A DNA stretch of 64,000 bases, taken from Daphnia pulex. Taxonomy: Eukaryota; Arthropoda; Branchiopoda; Diplostraca; Daphniidae. Made by a program: the position numbers and the translations under genes. Below, piece by piece: positions 4,601-49,462 of the stretch (positions are counted from its first letter, which is position 1; each line of letters starts with the position of its first letter). The stretch spans positions 8,387,501 through 8,451,500 of the forward strand of contig NC_060018.1 in the NCBI RefSeq assembly GCF_021134715.1, read 5' to 3'. The notes beneath the pieces were generated by a model that made no database searches, had not been told where the DNA came from, and saw only the letters and a list, made by a program, of their open reading frames with translations.

Positions 4601-6520
4601 CCACTCAGACAGACAGTCAGTACACAAGAACCTACAGGAATAGAGGGGGGTTCATTTTATATATGGATTCAATGTGGCTTTAATATTTTGTCATACGTCT
4701 TTAATAGTCGTCAGCTTAGCGTCATTTCTTAGGATTATTTCGACTATGGGGCATTCAAGCAAAACCAATCGTGACAATATTATTCATTACCAACTTTCGT
4801 TTTCAACAATGATTGTCCTTCAGAACTTCAGTTTAGTGGTTGATTATTCTCTTTTCATAGTGGATGTTATGCTTCATATTGATTGCCATACATCTCGGTC
4901 AAAACCAACAATGATCAAGGTAATTCGGCAAGACGTTTTTTTCGTGTCCAAGTCGTCCAAAATAATGACCCAATCAAAAATTTTGGTCAACTTGGCATTT
5001 GTCAAAACTTAAATGTAAAAAAATTGGGCAACTCGAGCAAATGCAGTTTAAATATTTTTTTTATTATAAGACCTTAGTGACGAAAAATGACAAGAAAAAC
5101 TCGGTGAAAAATATGCAAGACAGAAAGGCGGAGTAATTTCATGTATAAATGTATAAAAATTAATAAGTTATCGAAATTGCAGTAGTCTGGATCCAATCTT
5201 TGATAGACTAATCTACATTTTTGTAAATTTAAATTACCACAACGAACTTAGGAAAGTTTTTAAAGTAAATCCTTTGTTGCACAAGGTTCTTCCAACTTGA
5301 TACAAAATATTGCCAAGTAATTAGATTGAAAGAATTCTTTGTTGCAAAAAGACCATTGCAACTGCGATCCATGTTCTTTATATAAATTATACACGCCATT
5401 CCCAAGAAGACATTGCAAACAATGAAACCCACGCTCTTTGATAGTCAAACCCGGAAAAACTTCTCGTAATGCCCACATACATTTTCTTGAAGTCGCCCAT
5501 AACTTCTTGCAAGGCAAATTATTTTAATGAATGTCATCTTTTATAAATTCCAAAACGGCTTTTAACCCCCCCCCCCTCACTGCCCTTCTGCTCATGAGAA
5601 CCTAAGGCAAAGCCATTTGCTTTTATTCGTACTACTTTTTCTTGGCATTCTAAACTTTAAGAAAGACACGGATGCCAAAAGTTGCATTGGCTTTTTGACG
5701 ACGAGTCTCGATGCACCGTTAAGGTACCATCTCTTCATCATTCGCCTTAGCAATTGCAATTGTTTTCATACTTGGCAAAGACTATTTTTTACATATGGCG
5801 ATATTAAATTTGCATATACAAAATGGGCAGAATGAGAAAAAAATTATTGTTCTCTAAGGCGTAATTCGAGAGAGTAATTGCCAATCGTTCACCTGCTATA
5901 ATAAATAAAAAGCGAATTGTGAAAATTATTATTATTTAAATAATCCCACATAAAGAAATTGGTCTGCGTAAACTTTAAAGGTTAACCCTTGCGATGATAT
6001 TGAGAATAAATTGAATAAACTTATTCACAAGATTTATGACAAAATGTTTACCTCCTAGAATGCTTTGAGACTCATTCATGTCCAAATGTTAAATGCTTTA
6101 ACACTTTCTTTATTTTCCTGTGTATTATAAATCCGAGTCTATAACCGACTTGTATGTAGACTGATGTTAAAGGGGTAACTAAAATAATTCTTTGGAAATT
6201 AACATAAAAAAACATTTCTTGTAAGCTCTAATGTGGCCAAGAGTAAGACTTAATCAAACATTATAGCCGTGCTTTTGTCCTAAATAAAATTTAACGCATT
6301 CCATTCTGTTTCAGAATTTATATTACTTAAATACCATGAAACCACAAGCAATATTACACTTTTATTGTTTCAAATAAATACTGAGACATCGAATAATAAA
6401 TAAGAACAGCAGATATTTGAAAATTCTGCAATTCTTGTTTTTAGCCGTTGTCTTGACTACGGAGCAGTTTTATCAATGCTACAGACAAGCAATCAAATAA
6501 ATATTATTTTTCCAAACATA
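1648..6520. other. AT-rich intergenic region, no supported gene
   Basis: Only short ORFs occur, none with a recognisable motif. An A/T simple-sequence tract (AATAAT and AATAAA units) lies near 1930-1995 and a run of ten C at about 5567-5576. A TATATAAAG box near 3362-3370 is followed by an ATG at 3403, but the reading frame closes after about 20 codons and no convincing second exon was found. Confidence 0.5.
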
Positions 6521-6823
6521 TTAACCAAACAGCCATCCAGGAAATCTATTCCTCTTTGCCATCATCTGAGATTCAACGTCACGACTGAATCTAGTTATGC
6601 GATAATTGATAATGGGATAGTTTTCCGTGTACTCATGTTGTGCTGATACCAATAGTACACATACGGCAACGAAGACAAAAAGAATCAACATACCCTATTA
6701 GAGATCAAAAAATTATTATTTGTTGTTACAATATAGCTCTAATAATGGAATTAGGTATATAAATTCTTATATCTATGACAATAATTAAAAGCGAAAAATT
6801 TTCTAGTCAGTTACCTTGATCAT
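6521..6823 (-). CDS. Small secreted peptide, putative amidated neuropeptide-type precursor
   Basis: A two-exon gene too short for ordinary ORF calling. Exon 1 (6823-6815) encodes only M-I-K and ends AAG|GTAACT. A 120-bp intron ends in AG at 6696-6695, and exon 2 (6694-6521) runs to TAA, giving 60 residues. The N-terminus (MIKGMLILFVFVAVCVLLVSA) is a typical signal peptide. The 39-residue remainder is polar and has no cysteine. It ends MMAKRNRFPGWLFG-stop: a dibasic Lys-Arg followed by eight residues and a terminal Gly. That is the classic layout for prohormone cleavage and C-terminal amidation, predicting an amide of NRFPGWLF. A TATA box lies upstream on the same strand. I do not recognise the peptide family. 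It could instead be another small secreted, for example cuticular or immune, protein. Confidence 0.6.
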
Positions 6824-9800
6824 GTTGAAATTTTTTGATTATTTTCTTCTGTTTAGTTGATTAGTATTGCTAAGCCAACTGATGTCTGGTGATGAAAAGC
6901 GAAATTTTACGCTCTTTATATACACATCGCCGTTAACGTATCACCCGCACAAACCCTTTCTCTCATTTTAAGTGACAATTATTTGATTTTTTAAGGTCTG
7001 GAATTTCCAAGTTAGTTGAAGGACAATGGGATTACCCAACAGATATAGTCAATTGCTGAATGCAACTACGAACCTATGTTAGCGATATTGTGACGTAGTA
7101 GTTGTTTATCTTTCAAACCTGTTTTGAAATGAGTGACCCACTTATTTGGGTTTTCCCAATATGCTGTTTGAACATAGACAGAACTACATTTAACTCCAAT
7201 TGAAGAAATTGTAGTATCATCGTACATTTTTATCAAACTAACTACCTACTATACCCAAAAATCTTCAAGAAAACCTATTTTGGCATTATGTCTTATCACT
7301 GAGCATACAATTCAATCTTAGGTGAACCGAAGGTTTTCAGTTTCCGTATTTGAAACCGCTTTAAGGCAAACTTAGAGGTTGCATATTTGGGGAAAATTTC
7401 GCAAATCCGATGTCATTATAAATATACCACAAAATAGATGAAAATATGCTTAACTTAATGAACACTTAACACACAACTTAATGAAAGACAAGACATAATT
7501 CGAACTTGTTTTTACTTAACCAGTCCTCATTTTTTAAAACCCGCTTTGACAAAAAAGCCGTAGCTTTTCCAAACGGAAACGTTGCATTACCTACCCAGGT
7601 ATTTAGAATTTCGTTTTACTTTTCTAGTTAGTGATTTTACATTGCATCTAATGTTTCAGTGTGATTAACTATTTTGAATATTCACTGATGCGATGAGTTT
7701 TTCTTCCTTTTACTTTTTCAAAAATGAATTTCCTAAAATTACGGCTTTAGACTGCTGCATTGCTGATTCGATTAACAATCTTCGGAATTCTGCTCGAAGA
7801 AAAAAAAACAGGAGAGATATTGGGAAATGACAAAAAGAAATGAAGAATGTGTTAAATACAAACGAGTCAGAAGAGGCCCCATTTATGCAACTGGTTGTAA
7901 TTCATTCCATTTAAAATCACTGTGGAATTGTTTGTATATTTGGAATAAATTTTAACACAATTTTCAGCTTCAGTATATTTTCTACCTAGATTTATATTCG
8001 TCCACCCTTAATTTTGAAATTGATTGATACTATTTGCTGGCGGCTTGTCTCTGAAAAATTTAAGTCTGACATGGTGTAAAAGTCACCATTTGAAAATTGA
8101 ATTCGTATTAAATGCATATGAAACAAATTGCATCTTCTGCTTGACACGTGTTATTTAATTTTTGAAATATTACCAGTAACCAAAATGACCCAGCCTACAT
8201 TCAGGCAAGGAGGGTAAGAGGTGACTCAGCTACAAGTCTCAAGGCATGGAGCTTCATGGAACAAGTGGCCTTCAGGCTGGGCTCCACAAATACCATTTCT
8301 ACCTATTAGCCACAGAAAGAATTCCTCCTATGAATACATATTCAACATTATTCGTTTTACACACTGCTGGTGCATTCGTCAGAGTAAATATCAAAGTTTT
8401 ACTCAGTTGTTAAACACAAAGTTTACCTTCAATACTTGTTTCAGACCAGGGTCATCACAAGCCTTGGATGGGGAGCTCAAAGAGAAACGCTTCTGTCCAA
8501 ACCTAGCGTCTGGTTCTTATAAGGAACCGAGGGCAAAGAAGGCAAAACCAAAATAATAGAAAAAGCAATGTGAGCTTTTCAAATCAAATTGCAATTAGCA
8601 TATGTGGACGATTGACGACTTTTAACAAATGTCCGGCTTGAGTTTGTTCCAGTCCCCCCCCAAACGCGTTGCAGACAATTGCCCCCAACCAATGCCTCCC
8701 GAAATTCATTAATTAGTCCCACCACAGAAAAATACCCGGTATTTAAATCAAATAGCTTGATTAAAATTATAGAGAGGGTGGTGTGATCACCCCATAGGAT
8801 TTGGCCATAAGATTTTGTCCTCGGTTATGCATACTTATGGTAGTGACACTTCTTTTAAAAGAAGAACAAAACCAAACAGTGTTGCTAAAAAAAAAACAAT
8901 AATTTGAATTTGTAATAAAAAATTTTCATTGAAAAATAGAAAAAACCCGGAAGAAGAAGCACGAAGGAAAACTTCGACTCAAACCCAAGACTTCAGAAAG
9001 GGTATATCCGCCCGAAAAAACTTAACATCGACAAGGCCTCGGCATTACTCTAAATGAAAGCATGCGAAATATTCGGAAAGAGGCTAATTCTCCAACCATT
9101 GCCCATCTTAATTCCATCCCTTTGCCGGCCAATGTTACAATTAAGACGTCAGACAAGGACGTTTTGGCATCTTAATCGGGAATACATCAAATATCCAGGA
9201 AGGTGTCCACAGCTGACTAGAAGTTGGCACACAAAGCAAAAACAAACATTGTTTTTTAGACCTTAATTTTACATGTAAGAACTTGGAGAATCACTGTAAA
9301 AAGCGAATCCTGCTTTACATGTCTTCACTGGATGCGACTACACCCCAGCTTTTTCAAGAAAAGCCAAAACTCGTCCTTTATCCATTCTTGAACAGAATAT
9401 TAAATTTCAAGAAGCGTTTTCTCGCTGGGTCAAAATAAGATTATAAAGAAAACGCGCTCAAGATTATAGAGAAATATGTTTCATGGCGAATGATGACGAG
9501 TCAGATGGTTTCTTGTCCGTTTACGGCAAATTTACGAAAATACGCCGTCAGGCTTACAAATCGCTGTCTGATTACATTAAAGCCTCAGAGTTTCATGCCT
9601 GATTTTATCTAAACTGATTCTATTTAATATTATTTAAATTTTAAGCTTAGTTCTTGAGTTGATTTTTATGAGGTAAATTTTCGAAAAAATCGATAATTTT
9701 CCCGATTTTTTATCTCTTTCTGCACCCAAACGCCCCATCACCCATCACCCAAAAGTTATGCTTATGAGGTAAATCTCTTTCATTGTGGCTCCCGGACTAC

Positions 9801-12561: not shown

Positions 12562-15500
12562 TTACTGCTCTCCACGCTTAGTTAACATTTTACGCTTTTC
12601 CAGAGTTCGTAGAGCATATTTGGCCGCGGTACACTTTGCTATGCGGTAATTCCGCCCGATGCCTTTGAAAGTTCCTTTGCCGATGACGTCAACAGTAACC
12701 CTTAGACGGCCATCTGGTAGACGTTCAGCTTTCCTGTTCATCCAATTGTATAATCGAAATTAGTGTTATGTGGAATGAAATATTTTTTTAATTTTCTTAC
12801 CCAAACTTTACTCGGTCGGTTTCCAATTCCAGCAGTTCTCTTATAGGAGACTTCGGAACATTTTTACTAAACTCGTCTATGGATGAAGCATTATTTAGAA
12901 GAGTATAACAGTTAATCTGAAAGTTACAAGAAAAAACTTACCGATTTCTTTTTTCATCATGTTGTAATACACTCTCCAAACTGCATTCAAAGACATGTGG
13001 GAATCAAGATAAATGGCACCAGCAACCGACTCAAATACATCGCCAAGAACTTTAGGTACTTCTACATCCTCAGCTTCTATCATGTAATACTGCAGAGGAA
13101 AATGAAATTTATTTATTTTTTATTGGGATGACATTTTAAAAAATCTGAATTTTACCTCTTCATTGATGGAATGTCCGTTTTCTTCTTGAGCTTTGATGAA
13201 CTTGTCCATAATTTGATTCAAAGAAGGAGATAAATGTTTGAAATAGCGATGGAATTCATAACGTTCTGCCAAAACGGCAAAAGTCGTATTGTTCACCAAT
13301 GCCGAACGCAAATCAGTCAGAGCCCCAGGTGGGTGACGCGGCAAATTTTCATATAAATATCGCGTTATGAGGTAATCTACAGACACGAAACAAAAATATA
13401 TTAATAGTTTTCAATATATTCACTTTGGTACTGTACAGTACCTAAGACGGCATCACCGAGGAATTCAAGCCTTTGATAGCAATCGGTCAGTCGGTTGAGA
13501 TAGTAAGAGGCGTGGCTAAAAGCCTGGAGTAAGTAAGAACGGTCATTAAATTTGTAACAGATCTTCTCTTCAAAAGACTCAAATCCTGCCAACATGCGAT
13601 CCAGTTCTACATGTATATCCAAGGGTTGGTCAACTAAAGGTGAGATCGGCGGAGTCCAATATCCGTAAGAACCTTCGTTGATGACAGGAAGTACTTTGAG
13701 TCCAAGCCAGGACATGAAAAGCAGTGCCCCCCGCGGACCACAAGCTCTGAGATAGGCTCCAATAAGAGCCTCTACACAATCGGCAATACTCTTATCGGGG
13801 ATACTGTGCTGCGTTAGTAGATTGTAAGGGACGAAGCGAGGTAAATCTTGGGCATGAAATATGTTTCCATCCATAGCCACTTCTTCGACTGATGGAATCT
13901 TGCCTCCGAAACGCAACATTATCTGTTCCGATTTCTCTTGAACTAAGGCCTTTACCTGTTCGCTTGACATGTGTTCCATTCCCTAGGTTACGGTAAAATA
14001 ATAAATTACATTAAACGAGTAAACATGGCAAAAATAATACAAACAACAAAATATTTATACACATTAAAAATAAACAAAACACAAAAACTAAGAACTAGAA
14101 ATTAAAACAAACTATCGAGAAAACCAAGAAACAAGAAATACCTGCAAGTCAACGACATTCCAGTAGTTTAACGGAATTCCGGAGGAAATAAGTGCTTCTT
14201 CTAAGGCATCGGGGATGACATAACCCGGTGGTAACCAATTTTCATGCGGATTGAATTTCGTTGCAACCATACAACCACCAAAGAGTTTTTTTTTTCCTAA
14301 CTGATAAAGGTGCAGATTGGATACTTGTCGCGAGCGCAAATGGCTGAGCTCGCCCTCATGAATGCTGCTGTATTTGCAGTACAAGTAAGTGGTGATGGCA
14401 TATTTCAAAAACGAGTCGCCTATAGTTTCTAGTCGTTCTAAATTAATTCCGTCATTTGCACTGGACATAGTAAATGCTTGCAGAATCACACTCGGAGATG
14501 GTCCCGGATGGCTTTCCAAACCTTGCTGCTCGTCAAAACTGAAGGGGAAATCTAAACCAGGAACGGTGAGTTCTGTGATTACTAATCCAGTGTCGTCCTT
14601 TTTGGGAAGGATTGGAGTTTCTCGAATTGGTGGATCAGGAGAAGGCTCACTGTCATTAGAACATTCACTGGTATATTCTTCGAGTAACAGACGAGTGAGT
14701 TCCAACATATGTGAACTTTCGGACGCTAGTCTACGATTTGGTTTGGCTGCTGGGCCAGAGGGATCCAATGGCTTATTGCACTCCTCCGGAACTAGTGTGC
14801 TATTCTCTGGATTTTCCGTGATTCGATGAGTGAAAGGCGTCATAATAGGGATGTCTTTATCCATGGGCACAACTGATTGATCAACAATCAGTGCTTTGTG
14901 CAGTCTTAGTAAATTTTCACATTTGACTTCCAAATCCCTATTGGGAATATCAACGTTCCATTGCATTTTCATACTAAGAAGATCTTCAATGTTTTCATAA
15001 GGTTCATCGTCTTCAGTCAGCTCCTCTTCTAATTCTTCTTCCTCGGGACTTTTGAATTTTCTTGCTTTAAGGTTAATGGGTTCTTCAATTGCTTCAGCAG
15101 TATCGCCTCTGCAGACAAACTTTGGTCCAAACTCTTTTACTTTACAACCGCTTTCGTCTTCCTCGGAAACATCGTCCGTATCACTGTCGTTCGCGCTTTG
15201 ACCGCTATTGTATGAGCCATCTGAAAAATTGCTAATTAATTCAGAAGGAGACTGAGGGCGGTACTGAGAGAACTGCTTCGTTTTGGACTCGCCCCAAGGT
15301 TCAAGATAGCTTTGCGGTGTGGGGACACCAAATGCAGGGAGAGATCCATCATGCCCAGTAATATCCACCACTGGTTTGGACCAATCAAAATCCAGTCCGC
15401 TATCATTGGTAAGCAGGGCTACCGCTTGTAGATCGTTGTAGTCGTAGTCTTCATCAGCTGTTTCTGTGTTTCTGTCTGGGATTTAAAAAAAAAAAAAAAA

Positions 15501-18500
15501 ACAAGCATCAACTATATAATGTGACTCATAATCAAGTTATGACATACTATCGCTCTGATTATTACTGCCGTTGATTGCATCTGGGTTCCACACGCCTATA
15601 TCCAACAAAGAAGCTCCTGCACTTTTTTTCCCTTCTTTGATTTCCCTTTTGGGAACTTTTGAGGAGGATTTACTCGCATCGTTTTCTTCAGGGCAATCTT
15701 TCAGTTTCGTGTCTTCCACTTTTTTAGCAATACTTTCTCTCTGTAAAGGTGGTAACGCAGGATCTGAAGACTTGCATTTCCAATCAAATCGTAAAGCGGG
15801 CCAGCAAAAACCTAACAAGGTAAAGGATGCAAAGATAAATACGGATTACATAAAACGAATTTGATGACTAACCAGGTTCCAGCTGACTCCTCCCCAAAGA
15901 AATCTCGGTTGCTACTTTACAACGGAGTTGTTCTGCTAAAAGAAGTCCATTCAGTCTGTAAAGAATGCAAGGAAGACTAACGAAAAGACAAAATTAACGA
16001 ATAGAACCAATTCATTTTTTTTAAATGTCTTTTAATGTTTAAATTACCACACTGCTTGTCTCCATAGTGAGGCCGAAAAAGGATGAATGCTACACAATTC
16101 CGGAACAAGTATTTGTTTTTGTTGCAGACTTTCTCGCTGTGTTTTCTTTGTATGTTCCGAACTGGTTGGTAACATTACTCCTTTGCGGTTGACGTACCTA
16201 TAAATTTAGAAGGATCATAAAAAAATATATATAATAATCATATTTTTTTTTTCAACTTTCACTAAACACATTTTCTTTTGCCCACCTTGGTGTTAAAAAA
16301 TTGAGTCTGGCTGAGGTATGATCGACGTCTAACAGTGGCTGCTTCAGATTCTGAATTTGGATTCCATACTTGTGGCGATAGTATTTTTCAAATGTTGGAT
16401 AGTTGTTATCAGGGAACTTAGATTGAGGGTTAAGTTCGTAGAATATCTCGGCCACATAGAAACATTGTGGGTGTTCTTGATCACGATACCATTTCATTAC
16501 GACAGCATCAGAGAACAATCGAGGGTCAAAGACATATCCAGATCTGACTTCTTCGGCTATCAATTGGGGCTTCGAATCTCGAACGGACGAAATTAAATCG
16601 ATGAATACAAAATCCAAGCTTAATTTAGAGTGTTCCGAGAATGAACTTCGTCTTAAAGGAACGATTAGATAAGAACAGTCGGCGTTGTATACATCTAACA
16701 ACATAGGATCCTTTTCCAAGGAAAGTACGTTTCGAAAAATGTAGCGTTGAAAATCAGAAATTTGTTTCAACTGCCCTTCGGTCACTCGGATGGCATCAGA
16801 AATTTTTACAATTTCCACTTCCACCTCGCCTGAGCGAGTGAAAATAGGGAACGGACAGATTTGAGAAAGAGGTTTGCTGTTTAAAATTCCCAGACTTTGA
16901 ATAGAAGTCTCGGGTTTGTAAATTTTTCTTCCACGCGTGTTTTGCTCCTCAGGTATAGGCTCACTCAATACCTAACAAAAAATATCAACTATTATTACAG
17001 TAATTTTTGACATACTAATACGAATACCATTGTGATCGCGTACAAATAGCAAGGCTGATCAGGACGTGGAATACCGTTAATAAACGGATCAGCTACTTGT
17101 TTATAATAGTACTGTCTTCGCTTGGTAGTGCCTGGGCGTGGTAAGTTTTCTGGTACATTTTCTTCTTCCAAATCGGCATTGTAATCCTCTTCCTCTTCAA
17201 GCCGAAGGTTTTCCTTCCCCGTTGGATAGAAATGATCGTCCAACTCTTTCTTTTGGTGCAATAACCGACATGCTTCTAGTGCCGCAGATCGTTTGGCCGT
17301 TACTTTTGATGGCATAGGTTGACTTAATACAGTCTTTCGCAGAGGAGAATTAATTGGTAACTGCAACGAGCATATGTATGCTACGTCCAAGAAAACGTTT
17401 TCTGTTGCACCACTATTTTTAAATAGTCCAATCCATTTATCCAAAACAGATGGTTCAATTAATTCTCGTTTTATGGTACGTATCCTCCACACAGGGGTTA
17501 AGCGTGTGAAACAATCGCTAGGCAACTTTGCGCAATATCTACAACAGAAATTTTTCATGAAACCTAGTTTTACAGAATTAAAAAAGTATGTGATACCTGT
17601 TAATTATAGAAATCGCGTTTTGCAAAGATGCATACGAATTAGAAGTTTCATCAGAAGGGTAGGGAGCCTGAATGCAATTAAGCATATCTTCGTTGTGGTT
17701 GAAAAACTCAGCAACCGAATTGTGATACCCGCTTTTACTTAACAGAATTTGTTCTGTTGCATGAAAGTGAGATAAATCCACTAAAAACTCATCCATGCGC
17801 TCATTTTCGACCATGAGGATGTAATGTGCTTTTTTAGCGCGAGCTCGAGCTTTTGAGTGAACGTAAGCCCGGTAGGATTGTGGTAAATCGTAACGAATAA
17901 CCAGATGACATGCCGGAACGTCAATTCCATCCTCTAATACGCTAGTGGCTACAAGAATGTTACAATCACGACTACGAAATCGTTTCATGACGTCTTCTTG
18001 CTTTCTTTCTTCATTCTCCATTTCTTTGACACTCACGCCTTCCATTCGGTCAACCGTATACAACGGGCTTAGATAAGCTAGTTGTGGATCACAACGACTT
18101 GCATCCTATAAAAAAATGTAAATGAATATTCGGCATTAAATATTACATAGCAATACGAGAATTTTGTCGTTGTGGAACCTTTAAAAGATGGTAGAGTAAT
18201 TTTGCTGTAGTACGTCTTTCAGTGAAAATCATCCCACAGAGCTGGTAAGCATCTTCTCGATTTCGGTGATGGCGATTTGAGAAATCAGGACGCCGCCGTC
18301 GACTAGTGTGTCCTGGTTGAGTTGTCGATTGACGCAAAATCGCTGGACCGTTTTCAATTAATTCTGCGGTTTGCGACGTTTCGGTTGCCAACTTTGGGGT
18401 CTGAACAGTTTGCCCTTCGGACGAAACTAAAGAATCGCTTACTTCTACTAATTCAGCACTTGTGGGCAGCACGGAAGGTATCGGCGGTCGGTAGATCCGA

Positions 18501-20118
18501 AGAATGTCCAACAGGCGAAGAACCTTGGGATGGCTAAACTTCACGATACGTTCATATTCAGAGTATTTCTGAAACTCTTCTTCGCACAATGATCTAGAAA
18601 GTAAATATATATATATCATGTATACAAAGTACGTTGAAATGTGTACTTTAAAAGCGCAAACCTTATTTCAAGTAAAACAGTGAAGACAAGGCATAATAGA
18701 AGATAGTGTCTTTCATAAACTGCTTTCGTTTTCAATTTTTCTAAATGAATGAGGTATACCAAAGCAGCACGGTCTGCTCCCCAAGGACCTAGGTCAATTA
18801 TATTGTATTAATTTTTAAAATCGTCTAACGTAAACTTCTAAAAATAAATAAAAAAACTTATAAAAATATTTGTGATTATTCACCAAAATTTTGAATGATT
18901 TGGATGTATTCTTCAAGTAGATCAAGAGGTTCATGACATGGATTAGGAATCTCTTTTAGATAATCTTGTTCCCCATAGTACTCAGCGGGATCATATCGAT
19001 GATCTCGCAGATAATCATTCAATAAAAGAATACGACCCATTATTTCTTGCTGCAGCTCTGTGGCTTCATACTTGGACGATATTTCACATATCAATTCTTT
19101 GGGTCGAGTTGAATGCCTAGATTAAATAAAACATTAGAAGAGTTAATTTTCCACAAAAGTAGTCAGCAAGCAGATAGCATATTGGACTTCATCATGCCCA
19201 CACTAAATGAATTAATCACCATATACTTACTGCAAGGCTGACAAAACGTTGTTGGAAGTCGAAATAACCGATTTTAATTTTGTTTCCAGAATAGTTATCA
19301 ACTGAGACAGTTCCATCGGCTTGCATATGTTATTTACAATAGATGCAGTTAATCCAAGGATTCTTGGATGTACACTACTTGCTGCATTTTCATAGAGAGT
19401 TAAAACTCCTTTTAAAGCTTCATTGTTCATAACATTATGGCAGTCATCCAATATCAACAAATTAAGCTTGTTCATTTTGAGAAAGTTTTTGTGGATGACT
19501 TCTAGAAATATGGAATATGTCATGACAAGCACCTGACTTTTCCCCAACTCCTCTGTCCATCTTGAATAATACATATTAAGTGTTTTACAGTTAATTTTAT
19601 CCATAAAATACTTCTATAAAAATTTACCTTTCAGAACTCCACTGCAATACACCTTTTTTCTCATGAAAAATTCCTACTTTCAATGGAGTGTGATGGCGCA
19701 AGTAAGCTGAACGCTGAAGTGCCAATTTGATTGTTGGGGTAAGGTAAACTGAGCAAAAACCTCCCTTGGGTAAGAGCAGAGAACTAATTAAAACAGTAAG
19801 TAAATTAATGAGTTAAAATTTTACATCACTTCATAACTTACTTGCACACTTCAAAAGCTTTTTCTCGAATTAACATTACAGCAATGAACATCTTACCCAA
19901 GTCAGCTTTTAAACATGCAATAGTATTTTTAACTTTTGCAGATTCAAAAAGTTCAACCTAAAAAAATGTATAAACAATATTTCTTAACTAAACATGGCAA
20001 TCAAATATAAATTTGTTAAAGAATAAGTCTAACAATAGTATGGAAATCCTATACAAACCTCAAAATCTCTTGGAGTAAAATTATCATTTGATGATAAATC
20101 CATCATTTGAGGTAACAT
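12562..20118 (-). CDS. Dcr-1: Dicer-1-type endoribonuclease (miRNA Dicer)
   Basis: Cytoplasmic RNase III enzyme that cuts pre-miRNA hairpins. The ATG at 20118 opens a chain of exons, including 20118-20059, 19957-19842, 19783-19628, 19560-19231, 19116-18884, 18788-18662, 18593-18147, 18105-17597, 17538-17028, 16971-16286, 16197-16048 and 15976 onward, ending at TAA 12562. Domain order is complete. It starts with a helicase N-lobe ([20 protein letters not shown]), then the C-lobe ([20 protein letters not shown]), a Dicer dimerisation region, and a PAZ region (16971-16286). RNase IIIa follows ([22 protein letters not shown]), then RNase IIIb ([23 protein letters not shown]), and a C-terminal dsRBD ([16 protein letters not shown]). 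All acidic RNase III residues are visible. The helicase nucleotide motifs are degenerate ([14 protein letters not shown]). This matches the Dicer-1 branch, in which Drosophila Dcr-1 works without ATP. Confidence 0.93.
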
Positions 20119-33340: not shown

Positions 33341-35914
33341 GCGGTTGGTCGATTTTTTCTGTTGACTTTTCTGATAGTTGCAAATGTCAAACAATTCAAC
33401 GCAGAAAAAGATTTCTATGAATTACTTGGCGTGGAAAAAACTGCCGACAGTCGTGAAATAAGAAAAGCTTTTAAAAAACTTGCCATCACTTCCCGACAAA
33501 AACCCAGATGATCCACTAGCTCAACAAAAAATTTTAGATCTCAAGCAAGTTTATGAGATACTCAAGGATCAAGAGACCCGTAAACAGTATGATCTACACG
33601 GGGAGAATGGTATAAAAGATTGCTTCAAAAGCAGCAAAGAATATCAAAATTGGAACTTCTACAAAAACCATTTTGGCATTTATGATGATGATCCTGAAAT
33701 AATTACGTTATCGGCATCTGATTTTGGTAACCATAATTACCTTGAACTATTGTTTTTTTCATCTTTCTTATTAAATAATTCTGCTTTAGAACAAAATGTG
33801 AAAAATTCTATGGAGTATTGGTTCATCAAGCTATATTCCCCCATGTGTTCTCACTGCCATGTTATGTCACCAAACTGGAGGCAACTTGCTCTAGAACTGA
33901 ATGCTGTGATAAAAGTAGCAGCTGTAAATTGTGAAGAAGACTGGGTCCTCTGCCGTAAGGAAGGAATCTCATCGTATCCTTCACTTGTTTTATATCCCAA
34001 TGTAAGTTGTTTTTGTGCTGTGAAATCATAGGGTTCATTTCAATTAAGTTTGATTTTTAGAAAGATAAATACTATGGGGAGAGGACTCCTGAAGACATGC
34101 AGAACTTTGTTTTGCATAAACTACCTACTCAAGCAACTGAAATTTCTAACTACAATATCCTTAAGGAACTCGTTGACGAAAAAAGTCTAGAGGTAATTTT
34201 AAGCTTTCAAAATAAACCCAACAAATATTTATGTTATCTCGTTTATAGAATATCAGGGCAAAGTTAAACGAAGATCTCGGCCAAGATTGGCTCATTTATT
34301 TTACAGAAAGCCAAGACTCGTCTCGCTTCGCCGATCTACAGTATAGACGACTGCCTGCCCTCTTACCTCTTATAAAATTAAGTCACATCAATTGTAATAT
34401 GTCTGAAGAACTTTGCAAGTACGTCAAATGTTTCTCCCATACCAAAAAAATTTATGAATAATCGATTTTTTCTTTCTAAACAGAGACAAACATTACATCA
34501 CAAAGTATCCGACATTTGCTACTTTCAAGCGAGGTGGAGCGGTAGAGATGCATGTCGGTGGAGTGAGTGTGTCTGAGGTAGTGAATTTTGCACGAAACAG
34601 CATTTGGGCACCTAATCTGGAAACTCTGAATCCGAGTACGTTTCCCAGTTGTCTCAAAGATGGACACCCTTGGGTTGTTGACTTTTACGCTCCGTGGTGC
34701 CCACCTTGTATGCGTCTTATTCCTGAATTCAGAAGAGTAAGATTATTGTGGTTTGTTGTGGCTCTGGAACTTTTGTCTTTCATTTCTATTTATTTCAGGC
34801 CAGTAGTCTGGTTGGTGGCATAGTCAAATTTGGCTCTCTGGATTGCTCCGTTTATCGCGACCTCTGTGCCTCTTATGACGTTCGCTCATATCCAACAATA
34901 ATCTTTTATAATTATTCAACTCCGCATGCGTACACTGGTCAGTTTGTCAGCCGTGATATCGCCACATTTGTTGAAGATGTTCTTCGCCCTCCAGGTATCT
35001 CGGAAATGATCTTTTGTTACGCTTTAAATCGTGAGAGAATAATGAATTTGAAAAATGTTTTATATAAAACTTTTCGCAGTGGTTGATTTGACGATCGACA
35101 ATTTCGAGTCGCTGGTGTTGAACAGACCCGTGACCGAAATATGGCTGTTTGATTTTTTCGCTTCGTGGTGTGGTCCTTGCATTCAGTTGGCACCCCAGTG
35201 GCGTTCACTTGCCAGAATGCTCGGCCCATTAACTAACATCAACGTCGGATCAGTGGATTGCGTCACCCAGGAATTGCTTTGTACCCAACACAATATTCGT
35301 TCCTACCCAACCATTCAGATGTAATGTATGTTATGGGAGGACGCTCCGGTGAAATCATGTAAGTGTTTTATCACTTTTTAATTTTCTGTGATTTTATTCT
35401 TTGTTTTTTTTTTATTAATTGAATTGTTTGTCTCGCTACTAGTACCTACAACGGCTTCCAGCGGGACGCATATTCGCTACGCAGCTGGCTGGTCAATTCG
35501 CTATCATCGTCGGTTTACGCTCTGGGCGATTACAACTTCGCGGACCTGGTGCTCCGTTCCAGTACTCCTTGGGTGGTTGACTATTACGCTCCGTGGTGCG
35601 GTCCTTGTCAAGTGTTTGCAGTGGAATTTGAATTAGCCGCCAAGCAACTGTACGATGGCCGCCGTCTGAAATTTGCCAAAGTCAATTGTGATAGCTTCCC
35701 AAATGTGTGCCGAAATGCTGGCGCTCAATCCTACCCGACTGTGCGATATTATCCGGGTAAAACGGGATGGTCGCATCAGAGTCCCTTCGGCATCCCGTTT
35801 GTCAACGACCGCAGAAAAGTGGAGGACCTCGTGGAGTGGCTCGAAGAACTCCTGGTTTCTCATTCTCCTAGTGCCTCTGATAGCAAAGTTGCTTCCAGTC
35901 GTGACGAGCTCTAA
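33341..35914 (+). CDS. DNAJC10: ERdj5/DNAJC10-like ER co-chaperone and disulfide reductase, with indels
   Basis: ERdj5 reduces disulfides of misfolded ER proteins and works with BiP in ER-associated degradation. Visible in order: a hydrophobic leader, a J domain ([20 protein letters not shown]), and a conserved [10 protein letters not shown] segment. Thioredoxin domains follow, with active sites CSHC (about 33851), CPPC (about 34699), CGPC (about 35169) and CGPC (about 35598). The C-terminus is RDEL, an ER-retrieval signal. Short introns splice in phase. Oddities are: no ATG in the first recognised exon (start may lie in an unseen upstream exon); about 5 nt missing at the HPD motif near 33484, which removes the His and shifts frame; and a duplicated ATGTA at about 35321-35330, which puts TAA in frame unless an upstream donor inside the duplication is used. 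The gene is otherwise highly preserved. Confidence 0.82.
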
Positions 35915-40858: not shown

Positions 40859-42857
40859 ATGCGAAGAACCTACCTAGTGCTTCTCTTATTCTCATTCTCA
40901 TTCTTTTCGAAAGCATGGGTACGTTAGGGGTATTCAAAACCATTCTTCTTTATTGCGTAATGTCTTGCATGGTATGCGATGAGGCGTTCGTTGGGCGAGC
41001 CCCTCAAAGCATACCTTGCCTCGTTTGTGCCGGACTCGTTTGCAGAATTTGCTACAACAGGCGGACTGGTCGTCGTCGTGACGGTAATCCGTGTTAACCA
41101 AATTGTTTGTTTTGTTATTATTAGTAAAAAAATTTATATTTATAAAGGTATTACTGCTCCTGAATTGTTAATTATGAAACGCAACAATGAGTGTTTTGGC
41201 TACCGGTGTGATCCACCGTGCATGCAAGTGGCTCCTTTATCAACAACTGGCAACGTAGCAACACCACCATTGGAACAGCTGTCAAATTTTCGTCCAAACA
41301 ATCTCCAAATTTTCCAAGTTTCTACTTCTCACCAGGTACCAGGTGTAGTTTACTTTTTAGATTGTAACAATTAGCTAACTTTCATTCCTTTTTTGTCACA
41401 GATTTTTGCTGGTGTCGAGCAACCCTTAGCCAGCCAGAGAAGTGTTTATGATGAATCTAGGCCTGCGTCTCAGGTACATTCATATTGTTTCACATTATAG
41501 ATTATAAGCTCTTGTTAAGTAATGCATATTTGTTATGTAGAGTGGTGCTGTGTGCGGTCCATTAACTAACATGCCAAGGCATGGCATTCTGGACCTCCTT
41601 CGAGGCTTGTACGTTGGACCTTCTCGTCCTGTATCTTCGATTTCACCAGTCAACCCGGTGTTATCAAACGTTGTTATCGGCTTTCTTCCGACGCCTTCTG
41701 AATGGGGAAGAGGAGTCGCAGCTATGCAAATCGTCAATGAAGCCAGCACACCTATTGAAGATGTCCACGGCCCGAGTGAGCTCTCGTACACAATACCATC
41801 AGGGAATGAAGCTTCCTCCCTACCATCAAGCGAATCTTCAAGGATGTCCGTCATTGCCGATCCGTCATTGAGTGGCTCTGCCTCTGATCCATCTTCGAGT
41901 GACTCTACGTCTGATCCATCTTCGAGTGACTCTACCTCTGATCCATCGTCGAGTGGCTCTACCTCTGATCCATCGTCGAGTGGCTCTACCTCTGATCCAT
42001 CGTCGAGTGGCTCTACCTCTGATCCATCGTCGAGTGGCTCTAACTCTGATCCATCGTCGAGTGGCTCGAATTCCGACCAATCTACAGCCAGCTCCAGTGG
42101 TTCGTTTTTCATCCGTCGGGGTGGTGAGGTAAAAAGAAAATTCCAACCTTGGTGTCGACCTTTTCCTTATGATGTTTTTACTAATTTAGGTGAAAGAATG
42201 GGTTGTCGTACAAGAAGCCGGACGCAAGTGCTCATCAATACTTATCCAAAATGGCTGTTATAAGCTAGGTGTGAAAAAAAGGAATAAGGATGGCCGGACA
42301 ATCAAGTGGCGATGTACGCGACGACAAAGAGGCGATTCCTGCCCTGCTAGGGTTACACAAGTAGACAATTCTTTCTTCGTTGACGTTCACCATTGTTGTA
42401 AGGCCGACCCTTCACTACAAGTTCATATTCCCCTTTACGCCCTTGCAAAGCAAAAGATTCGTGGCGATGTATTTGTCCCTGCAAATGATGTTGTAGAGCC
42501 CCTCATGTTTAAAGCATATAAGGCGATTCCGAGAAAACATAGAAGAAAACTGTTACCAAAAATGGGGAATGTTGGACGTGCTATTAACAGGGCTAGACAA
42601 GGCCTAAGACAAAAACCCCCACTAACTTGGACTTCACTTTTGAATTAAATCACGTCCCAAAAAAGTTTATCCGAAAGGACATCAGGTGGTTTGACGGGAA
42701 AGGGGTGTTGCAGAGAATTGTAATCATGGCGACCGACACCCAACTTAAAAAACTGAGGGTTGCAAAACGATGGGAAGTTGATGCCACATTTCAAATTGTC
42801 CCTGATCCCTTTTACCAGCTTTTTGCTGTTCACAGTTTCACACACAGCTCACCTTAA
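40859..42857 (+). pseudogene. FLYWCH zinc-finger/MULE transposase-like gene, broken
   Basis: Coding pieces with introns. A stretch starting near 41550 holds a Ser/Pro/Asp repeat (8 copies of a 9-residue unit) and splices at 42128 (GAG|gtaaaa) to 42190. That exon encodes a FLYWCH finger with the expected W-x-C, C-P-A-R and H-H residues (KWRCTRRQRGDSCPARV; VDVHHC). FLYWCH fingers commonly bind DNA ends of MULE-type transposons. In a C run at about 42616 the frame breaks (stop at 42646). The shifted frame continues with KLRVAKRWEVDATFQIVPDP, the start of a MULE DDE transposase, and ends at 42857. The rest of the catalytic domain is missing, although a short unidentified ORF (42898-43101) follows. 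Confidence 0.65.
41874..42085 (+). repeat. 27-bp coding tandem repeat (SDPSSSGST)
   Basis: About eight copies of a 27-bp unit encode S-D-P-S-S-S-G/D-S-T/N in one frame. Long ORFs in the other frames and on the opposite strand here are artefacts of the same repeat. Confidence 0.85.
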
Positions 42858-43849: not shown

Positions 43850-44140
43850 TGTAGAAAATGTAAAAGGGATGTTTCGGCGTGTCGGGCCGATTACTTACAG
43901 TTTTCAAAGTTGAATAAATTAGACACGAATCACCGTGTCCTGTTCCTCTCGTATATTTTAACACACTGATTATTGTACAGAAAAAATGGGGGGAAATAAC
44001 AATTGGGAGGAATGGAAATAATGAGCGAAGTTGGGGCCACCTATCGGGGGCCCCCTAGGCAATAGTCGCGTAGGTGCGCCGGTGTTGTTATGCGGCGCCC
44101 GGATCTCGTCGTCGTCTGTTGGAATGGAATATTCCTAACA
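43850..44140 (-). repeat. 3' LTR of the BEL/Pao element
   Basis: 291 bp, 290 of 291 identical to the 5' LTR. The pol ORF runs into it: the last 33 or so codons and the stop (44041) lie within this LTR. It is preceded on the plus strand by the CACAT target duplication. Confidence 0.96.
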
Positions 44141-47100
44141 CACTCCCCACCAGAGCCCGTAGCATCCGGCTCGACATCTTCGGCGACGTCGTCCGGTTCT
44201 TCGGTAGCTGGCGTAGCGTCTCCGACATCGAGATCGATTTCTTGTTCTGGTGTAGTTGGGTTTGGATCCTCTTCCGGCTCCTGGATCGGTTCCGGATTTC
44301 CAATTTCGACGTCTTCGGCGAGGTCTTCTCGCAGCTCTATGGGGTGAAGACATTGAATGGCTCTATTAATTAAATTACCATTTGGAACCTTGAGCATGAC
44401 AGAGCGGATGAGTCCGTCGCGGCTTGGAATCAGTTCCTTCACTACTCCGGTAGACCACATGAGTCGTTTGGAGTTTTCGTCGTGGATAACGACGACTTCT
44501 CCTAGGCGGATCTTCCTTCCGGATTTTCCTTTGGAGTGGAAGTTGTCTAGTTGGAGTAGATAATCGTCGACGAATCTAGCACAGATGTCAGCGACATATT
44601 CCCTCCTGTTCTTGTCCATCTCTTGTAGTACGATGCTGGTCGATGTTGGAGCTAGCAAGTTAACGGCTGGCTCCGGATCGGCACGAGTAGAACGTCTGTT
44701 GTTTAGAAATTGGTTTGGAGTTATCGGAAGTGGATCGTCAGCTCCTTCCCCAATATGGCTGAGTGGGCGGGCGTTGATTACGCTCTCGATTTCTGCTAGA
44801 CTCGCTTCAAGTTCCATGTAGTCAAGGCAGGCTCGACCGTTGGAGCGTCGCAGCAGATCCTTGACGCTCCTCACCATCCGTTCCCAGAATCCTCCCCACC
44901 ATGGCGCTAGGCTGGCGGAAAATATCCAAAGGGTTTTTCTGGACGCGAGGAAATCTTGAATGGTTGGATCGGCATGGATAGTTCTCAGGAATCGTTCAAC
45001 ACATCGGAAAGTTTGCGCGTTGTCCGAATACATCACTGAGACGGGTCCTCGTCTAGCTGCGAATTTTCTGAAGGCTAGTAAGAAGGAACGCGCCGTCATA
45101 TCGGGTAGTAATTCCAGGTGAACCGCTCGAGTGACTGCACACGTAAAAAGACAAACATAACTTTTAAGATGGTTCGTTTTCTTAGCTTTAGTTGTTGTTG
45201 TTAAAATGTCTTGGATTTCGACATCTTCTTCGATTGAATCCTCTTCGCCTACGATTAGAGCTTCGATTGGAGCGTCTCCTTCAGTGGGTGGCTCCTCGAT
45301 TTGTTCTTCAGTTGGATCGTCTGCTGGCGTCGGATCCTGGACGCCTGGTGGAGCTTTCCTTTTCTTCCTTCGCTGTGCTGGTTTGTACAGCAGTGGTCCA
45401 GCGAAATCGACTCCTGTAACGTGAAAAGATTGTGCATGTTTGAGTCGGTTTAAAGGAAGAGGGGCTGCTAATTCCTGGAATGGTGGTGATGTCAGCTTTT
45501 TACATTCCACACAATAAGTAAACAAAGTCTTTTTCACTTGCTGTCGTCCTTTAACTATCCAGAATTTTTCTTTCAACTCTGATAGTGTCACCTTTGCTCC
45601 TGCATGTAGTAGCGACTCGTGTTTGTCTGTAATTAAGAAAGTGATTACTATATGTGATGCAGGAAGCAAAATTGGGGGATCGATGTTTCTATCTCTTAGG
45701 GCAAGTGATACTCTCCCATGGATTCGAACGAGACGGTCTCTGGCGTCCCAGATTGGAAAAAGTGCAGCGATTTTCTCCTTGGGCTGGATTGTGTTGTCTA
45801 ACTGTAGCGATTCAAACGCCTTAGGATACCGCTCTCGTTGGAGCTGTCTGTAGATCGTTAGTTCCGCTTCATCCAGCTCCTCTCTGGATAATCTTGTAAT
45901 CCGGATAACTTTTCCACTTCCTTTTCCATCTGGTCCAATTGCCTTTATCGACTCCATTCGTTCTGGACCGGGAGGTCTGAGCTTCTTTTGACTCCTGCTG
46001 AGGAATCGTGAGACCCAGGCTGTACGTCTTAACAGTCGATTCCAGGTGGAAATTTTGTCGAGATTCCAGTCGACGGAGGCTGTTGGAATTGCGATGGCTG
46101 CTGTTGTGCTGACCGTCGTACTCCTTGCTTCCGATTCCATTTCGGACTGGATTGTTTGTGGAATTTGGTCGTTGGGAGAATCTGGCCATTCCGTTTCTTC
46201 TCCTTTGAGCCAAATCGGGCCGTTCCACCAAAGAGTTGAGGTTACCAGCGTTGGCGCTGGCGCTCCCCGCGAGGCAAGATCGGCCGGATTTTGGAGACCT
46301 GGACAGTGTCTCCACCACTCGGGCTGTGAAAATTTTCGTATCGTCTCCACTTGGTTTCGGACGAATGGTTTCCATTTGTTCGGCTCTCCTCTAATCCATC
46401 CTAGTGCAACTAAGGAGTCCGACCAGTAGATAGTTCTCCAATACTGGATTTGCATTGCGTTTTTTACAACTTCGCCTAAACGTACGGCTAAAAGTGAGCT
46501 CAGCAATTCTAAACGCGGTAAAGTTACTTTTTTCTTAGGTAGAGGTGCAACTCTCGTCTTGCTGGCCAGTAGGATGATGAGTGGATCTTCTTGTCCTTTT
46601 TGGAGTCGGGCGTAGGCTACGGCTCCATACGCTGCTTCAGAAGCGTCTCCGAAGACGTGAATTTCGTGTGAGGTGACTTTTTCGGATAGTCCGATCCATC
46701 GTGGAATTTGTAGTTCGGTGAAATCGGCGAGACCAGTCATCACTATCTTCCAAGATTTTTGGATATCGGCTGGAGCTGCTTGGTCCCAACCTATCTCCTT
46801 TTCCCAGAGCTTCTGGTAAATAATCTTTAATAAAAGTACAGTGGGAGATAAAAATCCAATTGGATCAAAAATCCTTGCCGAGATACTGAGTATCTTTCTT
46901 TTGGTGATTTCCGATCCCACTTCTTCTACTGCTTGGATGATGGATGCTGGGTCGAATTTGAACGAATCGGATCCGGTGTCCCACCGGATTCCTAACACCT
47001 TCTGTTGGCCGTCCAAGGCTGGGGAGAGTAGGCCTACGACTTGATTCGATAGTCCTTTCTCCTTCAGGTGTTGTTTTAGGTCTTCGTTGTTGGTTGCCCA

Positions 47101-49398
47101 GCTTCTCATGTTGAGTTGGGCGTCACTAAAGATTTCGTCCGTTTCGTCGACTCTTTTCTTGGCGATCGATAAATTGTTTGCTCCGCCGAGGTAATCGTCA
47201 ACGTACAAACTTTCTTCCAGCTGTTGAATAGTTTCTGGAAAACGAGACTTTAGTGATTTGAAATGTTTGTTAATTGTAACACGTAGGAGAAAGGGGCTAG
47301 AACTAAGGCCAAAGGGCACTCTCTTCCACTTGTAGGCAATTAGAGGCGATCCAGCCACTGCTGGATCCCTGGGCCATAAAAACCTGATTGCTTCAGCGTC
47401 TTCCGGCTGCAGGGCGATGTTTAGAAAAGCCTTTTCTATGTCGGCAATCCAGGCAATCTCGTACTTTCTGAAGCGTAATAGCACTGATAGGAGATCGGGA
47501 TTGAGATTTGGTCCGGTCTCCAACACGTCGTTCAGACTTGGTCCAAATTTCGTTTTTGCTGCTCCATCAAAGACGGGTCTGATTTTCGTCGTTGATTTGT
47601 CGCCTCTGAAGATCGGATGATGTGGGAGATAGGTGTGAAGCTCTTCGTAGTCCATGTTCGCCTCCTCGACGAATTTGCTGTCGATGAGCTTTTGGATTTC
47701 TGCGTGGTAATTCACCAAGTCTCCTGGATTTTTTCTCAATCTTGTTATTGTGCTTTCCACTCTTCCGGTGGCCAACGGGAGATTTTTCTGAAGTCTCCAC
47801 TTGTCAGTTGTCCAAGGGATCGGTGTACAGTATCTTCCATCTGGCCATCTCGTTATTTTTTCGTCAAAGAAATCGAAGCGATCCTCCGACTCCACTGCAT
47901 CAGCGCCTTCAAGGTTCGCGAAGTTTTCTATTTTCCAAAAAAGGGAAAGGTCGAAATTAGTAGCAACTTGTTCTTCCTTCTCAAACCATTTACTATCTGC
48001 TTCTCCGCTGGATCCGATTGGGGCATCCGAGAATGACGCTCCTATTGGTAGATTTTGGGGACTGGCCGTTCCAGTCTCCTTTTCCATTGGAATTTTGTTT
48101 GCTTGAGTTGAAAGGATTTTTCTTTTTTGGCTACTAGTCGCGAATGTTGACGTAATCTGTGGAATCGGATAACTTGACGTTAAGATTAAATTTTGAATCA
48201 CTTGAGTTCCTGTCTTCGATTTTGTTTCTTGTGATGGTCCAGCAATCATTCTTCCGAGTTTCGTTTGAAACGCTCGTAATCCGCACGGACTCTGTATGGC
48301 GGCTTCATTCGACATGATTTGGAACATCTGGTCCCTTCCAACTAAAATTCCAATTGGCTGATCTTCGGTGTGTGCCATCTCGAATCTGTCGTCGGCTAAT
48401 TTTTCGTTTTGGATCCAGAGGCTGCTTGCGAATTCGTTTCCTACGTACGGGCCGGAATCTGCAATGTGATCTGATTCTAAAGCCATTAATGTAACTTTTG
48501 GGGCGCCTTGCCAGGTGCCCCTTACTTGCATTTCGACGTTTTTTGTCATTTCGGGCTTGCTGGGTTCCTTTTTCTTGAACACTCTTGTGCTGATGTTTTC
48601 CACCGCTACTGTCTTCATATTAAGTTGCGATGAGAGTGATTTCAACACCCAGGAACGATGACTCCCGTCGTCTGCAAATAAAATCGCTCTTGTTTCGTTA
48701 CCGTTCTGGCCGCTGATGATAACTGTTGCCGTTTTCAGCATCAATTGTCCAAAGGTGCTTGCACAGGCTGTAGTTGTTGTAGTTGGACTGCTGGCCATGA
48801 TGCTTGCTGCCGTTGTTGGGTTGGGGACTCTGACGTCTCCTTTGTCGCAGAGAGAGGTGTGGTGTCTTCCTCCGCACTTGTTGCAGTTCCGGGTGGATGT
48901 GCAATCCTTCAGCTCGTGCTTTGATCCAAAGCAATTGACGCACCTTTTTAGATCAAAAATTATCTTCTTCCTTTCCGCCAGTCCTTTCGGACATTTTGTC
49001 GGCCAGTGAATTTGGCTGCAGAAAATGCAGGGCCTTTCACATACAATCCAGCTTGGGTTAAATTTAACGTTTTTACTTTTTAAGGAGGATTTGACCTGAG
49101 GGGCTGGGCTTGCTTTGGCTCCTATTGCCAGTTGTGATGCTGTTGCTGGCGATGGATTTGCCGGTTTGGGCTGTTTAGGAGCTGGAGACGATTTCTCCTT
49201 TTCCACACCTTTGATTCGGTTGAACCTTTCGGCCGCATCGATTTGATCTCCAATGAATTTGATGACCATCTCGATGTCCGTTGATTTGTTTGTTGGCGAT
49301 TTTGCCCATTCTTGTTGGAGCCTGGTAGGAATTAATTTGATTAATCTTGCTCCGAGGAGTCCTCCGAAGGAGCTTGTGGGGACTCCTAACGTTTCCAA
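44041..49398 (-). CDS. BEL/Pao Pol polyprotein (part of Gag, protease, RT, RNase H, integrase)
   Basis: A single open frame of 1785 codons. In order: the C-terminal part of Gag; zinc-binding clusters at about residues 120-184 (CERPCIFC; CVNCFGSKHELKDC; CNKCGGRHHTSLC); and a retropepsin-like aspartic protease at about 238 (LFADDGSHRSW, the family's D-D/E-G form). Reverse transcriptase follows (WIADIEKAFLN; catalytic YVDD at about 733), then RNase H (HVFGDASEAAYGAVAYA, about 913). Integrase comes next, with a His/Cys finger and a DDE core (VDFAGPLL about 1331; SDNAQTF about 1456; WWGGFWERMVRSVKDLL). A C-terminal DUF5641-type domain (LGEVVVIHDENSKR) ends the protein. No internal stop is present. 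The annotated first Met is not the natural start, because Gag sequence continues upstream in other frames. Confidence 0.95.
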   Translation of the reverse strand: METLGVPTSSFGGLLGARLIKLIPTRLQQEWAKSPTNKSTDIEMVIKFIGDQIDAAERFNRIKGVEKEKSSPAPKQPKPANPSPATASQLAIGAKASPAPQVKSSLKSKNVKFNPSWIVCERPCIFCSQIHWPTKCPKGLAERKKIIFDLKRCVNCFGSKHELKDCTSTRNCNKCGGRHHTSLCDKGDVRVPNPTTAASIMASSPTTTTTACASTFGQLMLKTATVIISGQNGNETRAILFADDGSHRSWVLKSLSSQLNMKTVAVENISTRVFKKKEPSKPEMTKNVEMQVRGTWQGAPKVTLMALESDHIADSGPYVGNEFASSLWIQNEKLADDRFEMAHTEDQPIGILVGRDQMFQIMSNEAAIQSPCGLRAFQTKLGRMIAGPSQETKSKTGTQVIQNLILTSSYPIPQITSTFATSSQKRKILSTQANKIPMEKETGTASPQNLPIGASFSDAPIGSSGEADSKWFEKEEQVATNFDLSLFWKIENFANLEGADAVESEDRFDFFDEKITRWPDGRYCTPIPWTTDKWRLQKNLPLATGRVESTITRLRKNPGDLVNYHAEIQKLIDSKFVEEANMDYEELHTYLPHHPIFRGDKSTTKIRPVFDGAAKTKFGPSLNDVLETGPNLNPDLLSVLLRFRKYEIAWIADIEKAFLNIALQPEDAEAIRFLWPRDPAVAGSPLIAYKWKRVPFGLSSSPFLLRVTINKHFKSLKSRFPETIQQLEESLYVDDYLGGANNLSIAKKRVDETDEIFSDAQLNMRSWATNNEDLKQHLKEKGLSNQVVGLLSPALDGQQKVLGIRWDTGSDSFKFDPASIIQAVEEVGSEITKRKILSISARIFDPIGFLSPTVLLLKIIYQKLWEKEIGWDQAAPADIQKSWKIVMTGLADFTELQIPRWIGLSEKVTSHEIHVFGDASEAAYGAVAYARLQKGQEDPLIILLASKTRVAPLPKKKVTLPRLELLSSLLAVRLGEVVKNAMQIQYWRTIYWSDSLVALGWIRGEPNKWKPFVRNQVETIRKFSQPEWWRHCPGLQNPADLASRGAPAPTLVTSTLWWNGPIWLKGEETEWPDSPNDQIPQTIQSEMESEARSTTVSTTAAIAIPTASVDWNLDKISTWNRLLRRTAWVSRFLSRSQKKLRPPGPERMESIKAIGPDGKGSGKVIRITRLSREELDEAELTIYRQLQRERYPKAFESLQLDNTIQPKEKIAALFPIWDARDRLVRIHGRVSLALRDRNIDPPILLPASHIVITFLITDKHESLLHAGAKVTLSELKEKFWIVKGRQQVKKTLFTYCVECKKLTSPPFQELAAPLPLNRLKHAQSFHVTGVDFAGPLLYKPAQRRKKRKAPPGVQDPTPADDPTEEQIEEPPTEGDAPIEALIVGEEDSIEEDVEIQDILTTTTKAKKTNHLKSYVCLFTCAVTRAVHLELLPDMTARSFLLAFRKFAARRGPVSVMYSDNAQTFRCVERFLRTIHADPTIQDFLASRKTLWIFSASLAPWWGGFWERMVRSVKDLLRRSNGRACLDYMELEASLAEIESVINARPLSHIGEGADDPLPITPNQFLNNRRSTRADPEPAVNLLAPTSTSIVLQEMDKNRREYVADICARFVDDYLLQLDNFHSKGKSGRKIRLGEVVVIHDENSKRLMWSTGVVKELIPSRDGLIRSVMLKVPNGNLINRAIQCLHPIELREDLAEDVEIGNPEPIQEPEEDPNPTTPEQEIDLDVGDATPATEEPDDVAEDVEPDATGSGGECVRNIPFQQTTTRSGRRITTPAHLRDYCLGGPR

Positions 49399-49462
49399 CG
49401 CGCTGATGTGCGATTGGAGATTCAGCTGGAAGCTCCTTAGAGCTGGAACGTCGTTCCCGTCC

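Follow-up and report, generated by a model that had tools for sequence, protein, structure and literature searches.

A dispersed family of short split genes in Daphnia pulex with a conserved R-F-x-x-W-L-[F/Y]-G tail, candidate precursors of amidated peptides

Short amidated immune peptides occur in insects, the Bomanins being an example. Leucokinins are defined by the C-terminal pentapeptide F-X1-X2-W-G-amide, and the leucokinin (LK) precursor is reported missing in Daphnia, both according to PMC7913504; background on SIFamide, the third system considered here, comes from PMC4237046. We compared with these systems a split gene located in a stretch of 64,000 nucleotides (hereafter the window; C2:8387501-8451500) of the Daphnia pulex genome, which was searched at 133,188,837 bases in 13 contigs. 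On balance, we lean towards the view that this is one of at least seven related genes, scattered over the D. pulex genome, whose short secreted precursors give rise to amidated regulatory peptides.

The split gene and its surroundings in the window

All parts of the gene lie on the minus strand. A TATA box, TATATAAA, was read in the sequence at 6915..6922, and two paralogues (L002 and L003) have the same element in a comparable position ahead of their ATG; a likely start site is CATCA, about 29 bases beyond the box. The coding part of exon 1, ATG ATC AAG (MIK), occupies 6815..6823 and is followed by a 120-bp, phase-0 GT-AG intron (GTAACT...AATAG; 6695..6814), found at the same place in the paralogues. 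Candidate first exons of comparable form, M-x(1-3)-K, together with a phase-0 intron and a G-stop end, are present in each of L002-L006. Exon 2 (6521..6694; 57 codons plus TAA) holds the remainder of the leader, the propeptide, the tail and the stop, and has five similar counterparts elsewhere in the genome; a poly(A) signal, AATAAA, was read at 6361..6366. The predicted protein of 60 amino acids consists of MIK and the exon 2 product GMLILFVFVAVCVLLVSAQHEYTENYPIINYRITRFSRDVESQMMAKRNRFPGWLFG. Its predicted leader of 21 residues ends VSA|Q, with the cut placed before Q, and the exon 2 part of this hydrophobic signal peptide (6641..6694) has a best 12-residue Kyte-Doolittle mean of 3.55. Downstream are two overlapping furin-type R-x-x-R sites (RITRFSR, 6581..6601), a KR dibasic site (6551..6556) and the tail RFPGWLFG (6524..6547), whose last Gly is a candidate amide donor.

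Much of this layout had been proposed in a first-pass annotation of the same DNA. Its TATA promoter, three-codon first exon, 120-bp GT-AG intron and C-terminus AKRNRFPGWLFG-stop are all present, and its signal peptide of 20-21 residues agrees with the hydrophobic leader seen on the Kyte-Doolittle scale. The lack of cysteines, also claimed there, holds for the rest of the protein but not for the leader, which contains one Cys. Judged from its sequence, this split gene is real rather than a chance open reading frame, and it is one of a small gene family.

The window holds several other features. At 13401-18667 on the minus strand there are RNase III domain frames, one above and one just below the Pfam cut-off, with frames further on that are helicase-like by eye; we took these as a Dicer gene. 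A plus-strand DnaJ and thioredoxin frame with a later thioredoxin-like frame that ends SSRDEL by eye (33462-35914) forms an ER DnaJ/disulfide reductase-like gene, and a frame of near-exact DPSSSGSTS-like repeats lies on the same strand at 41541-42263. A long retroelement-like frame adjoining a frame with DUF1759 (44041-49939, minus strand) marks an element that we take to be probably of the BEL/Pao type.

Family members in the genome

A similarity search of the genome with exon 2 recovered the gene itself and five further genes, with E-values from 4.8e-22 to 0.019. Two of these (L002 and L003) lie on C10 near 11.72 Mb and both end in ...ALQRNRFPGWLYG; the remaining three (L004, L005 and L006) are found on C10 at 12.93-12.96 Mb, where two genes end in ...MIGSRFSRWLFG and one in ...MSSRFSRWLFG. 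Exon 2 of L004 and L005 differs in four codons, three of them synonymously, and the 5.8 kb separating these two genes gave no tblastn match better than E 0.29. Within 1.5 kb of the C10 copies, inspection by eye showed a frame resembling a serine protease next to L004 and one resembling a fucosyltransferase next to L006; these neighbours provided no functional hint.

A seventh gene, L012 (C4:241615), was identified with the pattern R-F-x-x-W-L-[F/Y]-G-stop, which gave 8 matches in the genome vs 2 in the reversed control, namely the six similar genes, L012 and a chance match (L013) whose reading frame opens at the motif. All seven genes have a candidate first exon of 3-6 codons, a phase-0 intron, a hydrophobic leader and the R-F-x-x-W-L-[F/Y]-G-stop end; at some loci the first exon was chosen among several mechanical candidates by agreement between copies. 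The leader contains a 12-residue hydrophobic core with a Kyte-Doolittle mean of 3.2 to 3.6 throughout (7/7). Similarly, Gly immediately precedes the stop in every member, six of which were found via whole-exon similarity and L012 via a pattern requiring that tail.

Protein searches and patterns over the genome identified no eighth gene with the tail, and because the searches seed loosely, seven genes is a lower bound. Another tail pattern produced 52 matches (11 in the control): seven belong to the family, 39 lack a stop because they end in TGG, and the six others that contain a stop (L029, L030, L031, L044, L048 and L013/L057) are all without a leader. A further tail pattern gave 13 matches (8 in the control), consisting of the same seven genes, L013 and five others; judged by their letters, the motif is interrupted by a stop in three of these and lacks its final stop in a fourth, while the fifth (L067) is in frame but lies in a 33-codon frame without a hydrophobic leader by eye. 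The pattern RFPGW[L/F] matched six times in both genome and control; four of the genomic matches are family members, and L058 and L061 have no leader by eye. None of 34 pattern stretches in viral contigs was confirmed. These searches also brought up a 24-mer, TTTTCTAGTTGGTTTTTCGGGTGG, that is repeated on many contigs (such as L028, L033-L035, L038-L040) and forms 8 facing pairs 806-943 bp apart, an arrangement like that of a mobile element whose ends are inverted.

Pfam and NCBIfam contained no family for the three genes scanned of the seven (the window gene, L004 and L012), whose sole Pfam match had an E-value of 0.26, far below the cut-off. The family peptide strings occurred in no paper of the open-licence literature searched, which does not prove their absence from print; the main Daphnia peptidome paper is that of Dircksen et al. 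2011, to which PMC4237046 refers.

It is very improbable that the window gene is a decaying or untranscribed copy without function. Its reading frame and splice sites are intact, as are its TATA box and poly(A) signal; over the 110 bp before the ATG it shares 80% identity with L002, and six more genes share its layout, with no stop within the matched exon in any of them.

Candidate cleavage sites, the conserved tail and its second scaffold

The first-pass annotation had treated KR plus a terminal Gly as the signature of an amidated peptide precursor, and had named a retained leader with freely varying KR...G as the outcome that would speak against it. Among the paralogues, the KR half of this signature does vary: the site is present in the window gene only (1/7) and was rejected as a family signature. 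The Gly half is constant. At this place the six other genes read LQR-N, LQR-N, IGS-R, IGS-R, MSS-R and INR-N. Upstream R-x-x-R sites are found in six of the seven genes, as two overlapping sites in the window gene, L002, L004, L005 and L006 and as one in L003; L012 has none, nor any standard cleavage site. What stands of the proposed precursor is the secreted layout with a conserved C-terminus and its terminal Gly, not KR as the defining cleavage signal.

Since R-x-x-R is present in 6/7 genes and KR in 1/7, the mature peptides may be 16-21-mers rather than an 8-mer, and the octapeptide NRFPGWLFamide given as the product in the first-pass annotation may be wrong. The simplest common product of the six genes would be a peptide of 16-21 residues ending in WL[F/Y]-amide. 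If cut at the conserved R-x-x-R, the window gene would yield DVESQMMAKRNRFPGWLFamide (18 residues), which its KR may then trim to NRFPGWLFamide. An additional R-F-S-R inside the tail of L004-L006 might be cut by a furin-type enzyme; this, the presence of KR in a single gene and the lack of a standard cleavage site in L012 count against our preferred reading as regulatory peptides.

The alignment of the six similar genes has 16 invariant columns, 5 of which fall in the last 8 positions and 11 in the other 49 of the window protein. Identity was higher in the coding exon than in the 200 bp after the stop in all five within-group pairs measured out of six (80 v 50%, 78 v 72%, 94 v 51%, 98 v 68% and 85 v 66%). 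The contrast is small in one pair (78 v 72%), and in one pair the 110 bp upstream of the ATG roughly match the exon in conservation (80 v 80%). The shuffled baseline for flank identity has a mean of 46% and a maximum of 54%; two of the 3' values are at this level, and therefore those flanks may simply be non-homologous. When the window gene was compared with L002 or L003, small counts of 2 synonymous and 1 non-synonymous differences were observed in the last ten codons (pS 0.31, pN 0.04), and in the mid-propeptide, again on small counts, pN was about equal to pS (0.21 v 0.18; 0.25 v 0.28).

The protein of L012 consists of MLYKSM from the first exon, followed by TLLVLVALAACVFAMDAEVQDQEAAEQSYRNPTGPPMTPIHGVYGPPSYQYGVNAGGDINRNRFPGWLYG, and its end, RNRFPGWLYG, is identical to that of L002 and L003 in 10/10 residues. 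In the last ten codons it differs from these two genes by 6 synonymous and 0 non-synonymous changes, and from the window gene its tail codons differ by 7 synonymous and 1 non-synonymous; assuming common descent of the tail, the binomial value for L012 vs L002 is 8.6e-5. Resemblance to the window family is confined to the last ten residues, beyond which DNA alignment revealed no convincing similarity, and when 24 residues of tail served as the query of a protein search, L012 was reached at E 0.13 only. The case for L012 rests on exact tail identity, with a chance expectation for RNRFPGWLYG-stop of about 6.5e-7 over both strands of the whole genome. Because L012 has the same tail on a different scaffold, with no non-synonymous difference from L002 and L003, selection appears to be preserving the tail itself. 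If it arose twice, its identity suggests that one particular peptide was selected for; whether shared by descent or evolved twice, it looks like the functional unit.

Strict conservation of the tail is also relevant to the possibility, which we regard as unlikely, that the genes encode secreted host-defence or gut effector peptides, like the short amidated immune peptides of insects, instead of a receptor ligand. Defence peptides often diversify, whereas this tail does not, and none of the three members scanned of the seven matched Pfam or NCBIfam. The predicted peptides carry a net charge of +1 to +3 as amides, which is in line with defence yet low for a membrane-active peptide. The number of genes, with two groups in tandem-like clusters on C10, and the short secreted product with an aromatic tail would suit such a role as well. 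Defence peptides, too, usually come one per precursor and from several near-identical genes, which counts against reading the family as regulatory signals.

The 5' part of L012 has a different affinity. Over a stretch that begins some 90 bp upstream of the ATG and runs to roughly codon 55 of exon 2, apart from a 9-residue insert, it matches a Gly/Tyr/Pro-rich secreted family of C4 (L020-L023, L025), and it shares with these proteins the promoter, first exon, intron and first ~55 exon-2 codons; the tail is all that L012 has in common with the window gene. A protein search of the genome with L012 found nine places, itself and eight others, none of these eight with the tail. Origin in such a family is unlike that of a neuropeptide precursor and counts against the regulatory-peptide reading. 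It is in line with a view that we consider quite improbable, namely that the genes encode small secreted structural proteins of the cuticle or gut lining, with RF..WL[FY]G as a tag for binding or assembly that stays on the protein and is not amidated. Cuticle protein genes commonly begin with a very short first exon followed by a phase-0 intron, as seen here, and KR is unconserved; however, the six similar genes hold little besides leader, propeptide and tail, they retain R-x-x-R, and Gly directly precedes the stop in 7/7.

The 5' module itself, made up of a TATA promoter, a tiny first exon, an intron, the leader and a spacer resembling QDQEAAEQYYRIHGVYP, precedes differing C-termini at L019-L027, located on C4 at 241-261 kb, 345 kb and 3.93 Mb and on C3 at 2.18 Mb. 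These C-termini are Gly/Tyr/Pro-rich, Cys-containing (L020) or the RFPGWLYG tail (L012/L019); L024 has the start of an M1 aminopeptidase (Pfam E 8.8e-5, yet below the cut-off), and L027 is similar by eye.

Proposed role and comparison with known peptides

According to the regulatory-peptide reading that we prefer, the signal peptide would be removed, at [A/S]|Q in six of the seven precursors, and the propeptide would be cut, most likely at the conserved R-x-x-R. Peptidylglycine alpha-amidating monooxygenase would convert the R-F-x-x-W-L-[F/Y]-Gly end to ...WL[F/Y]-amide; the terminal Gly fits alpha-amidation and is the single feature from which amidation is predicted. The peptide would act extracellularly as a regulatory signal (a neuropeptide, or a gut or tissue hormone), and its target would probably be a G-protein-coupled receptor. 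This role as a receptor ligand is our best guess.

We also put forward, tentatively and with some doubt, that R-F-x-x-W-L-[F/Y]-amide is an undescribed signal carried on two scaffolds, either by codon grafting or by convergence, perhaps with leucokinin-like recognition of F-x-x-W in a lineage reported to be without a leucokinin precursor. If true, seven or more genes of a model crustacean would encode peptides with one conserved tail on two different precursors. Orphan receptors would gain a candidate ligand, and the tail would be a clear example of a bioactive peptide that either passed from one secreted protein to another or evolved on two occasions. The gene also serves as a warning that short split genes may go unnoticed.

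Leucokinins, the kinins of insects and decapods, and the family have in common an F-x-x-W core near the C-terminus, amidated in the former and predicted to be so here. The core of L004-L006, F-S-R-W, has residues allowed at X1 and X2, while FPGW in the window gene includes residues that are not in the set listed in PMC7913504. Leucokinins end in W-G-amide, whereas in the family W is followed by L-[F/Y] and the amide donor; all seven genes read F-x-x-W-L-[F/Y]-G-stop, and we did not assign them to the leucokinins. A genome search with a single leucokinin layout, F-x-[STPA]-W-G-G-K-R, found no such precursor: its one match (L073; control 0) is a 21-residue frame without a leader.

The spacing of SIFamide and SMYamide, F-x-G-x-[I/L/M]-[F/Y]-amide, is comparable to F-P-G-W-L-[F/Y]-amide of the family. 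The genome has a separate SIFamide gene (L072), in which TRKLPFNGSIFGKR, presumably the published Daphnia SIFamide, directly follows the leader, whereas the family peptide is at the C-terminus. The family lacks P-F-N-G-S-I-F, and L004-L006 have R where SIFamide has G; the pattern P-F-N-G-S-[I/M]-[F/Y]-G matched L072 only and none of the seven genes, which were not assigned to SIFamide either. The short amidated immune peptides of insects, such as Bomanins, resemble the family in that they too are small, secreted and encoded by several genes, each of which gives one short product. Set beside these systems, this is a new family of a known kind, and its unusual point is the same tail on two different scaffolds.
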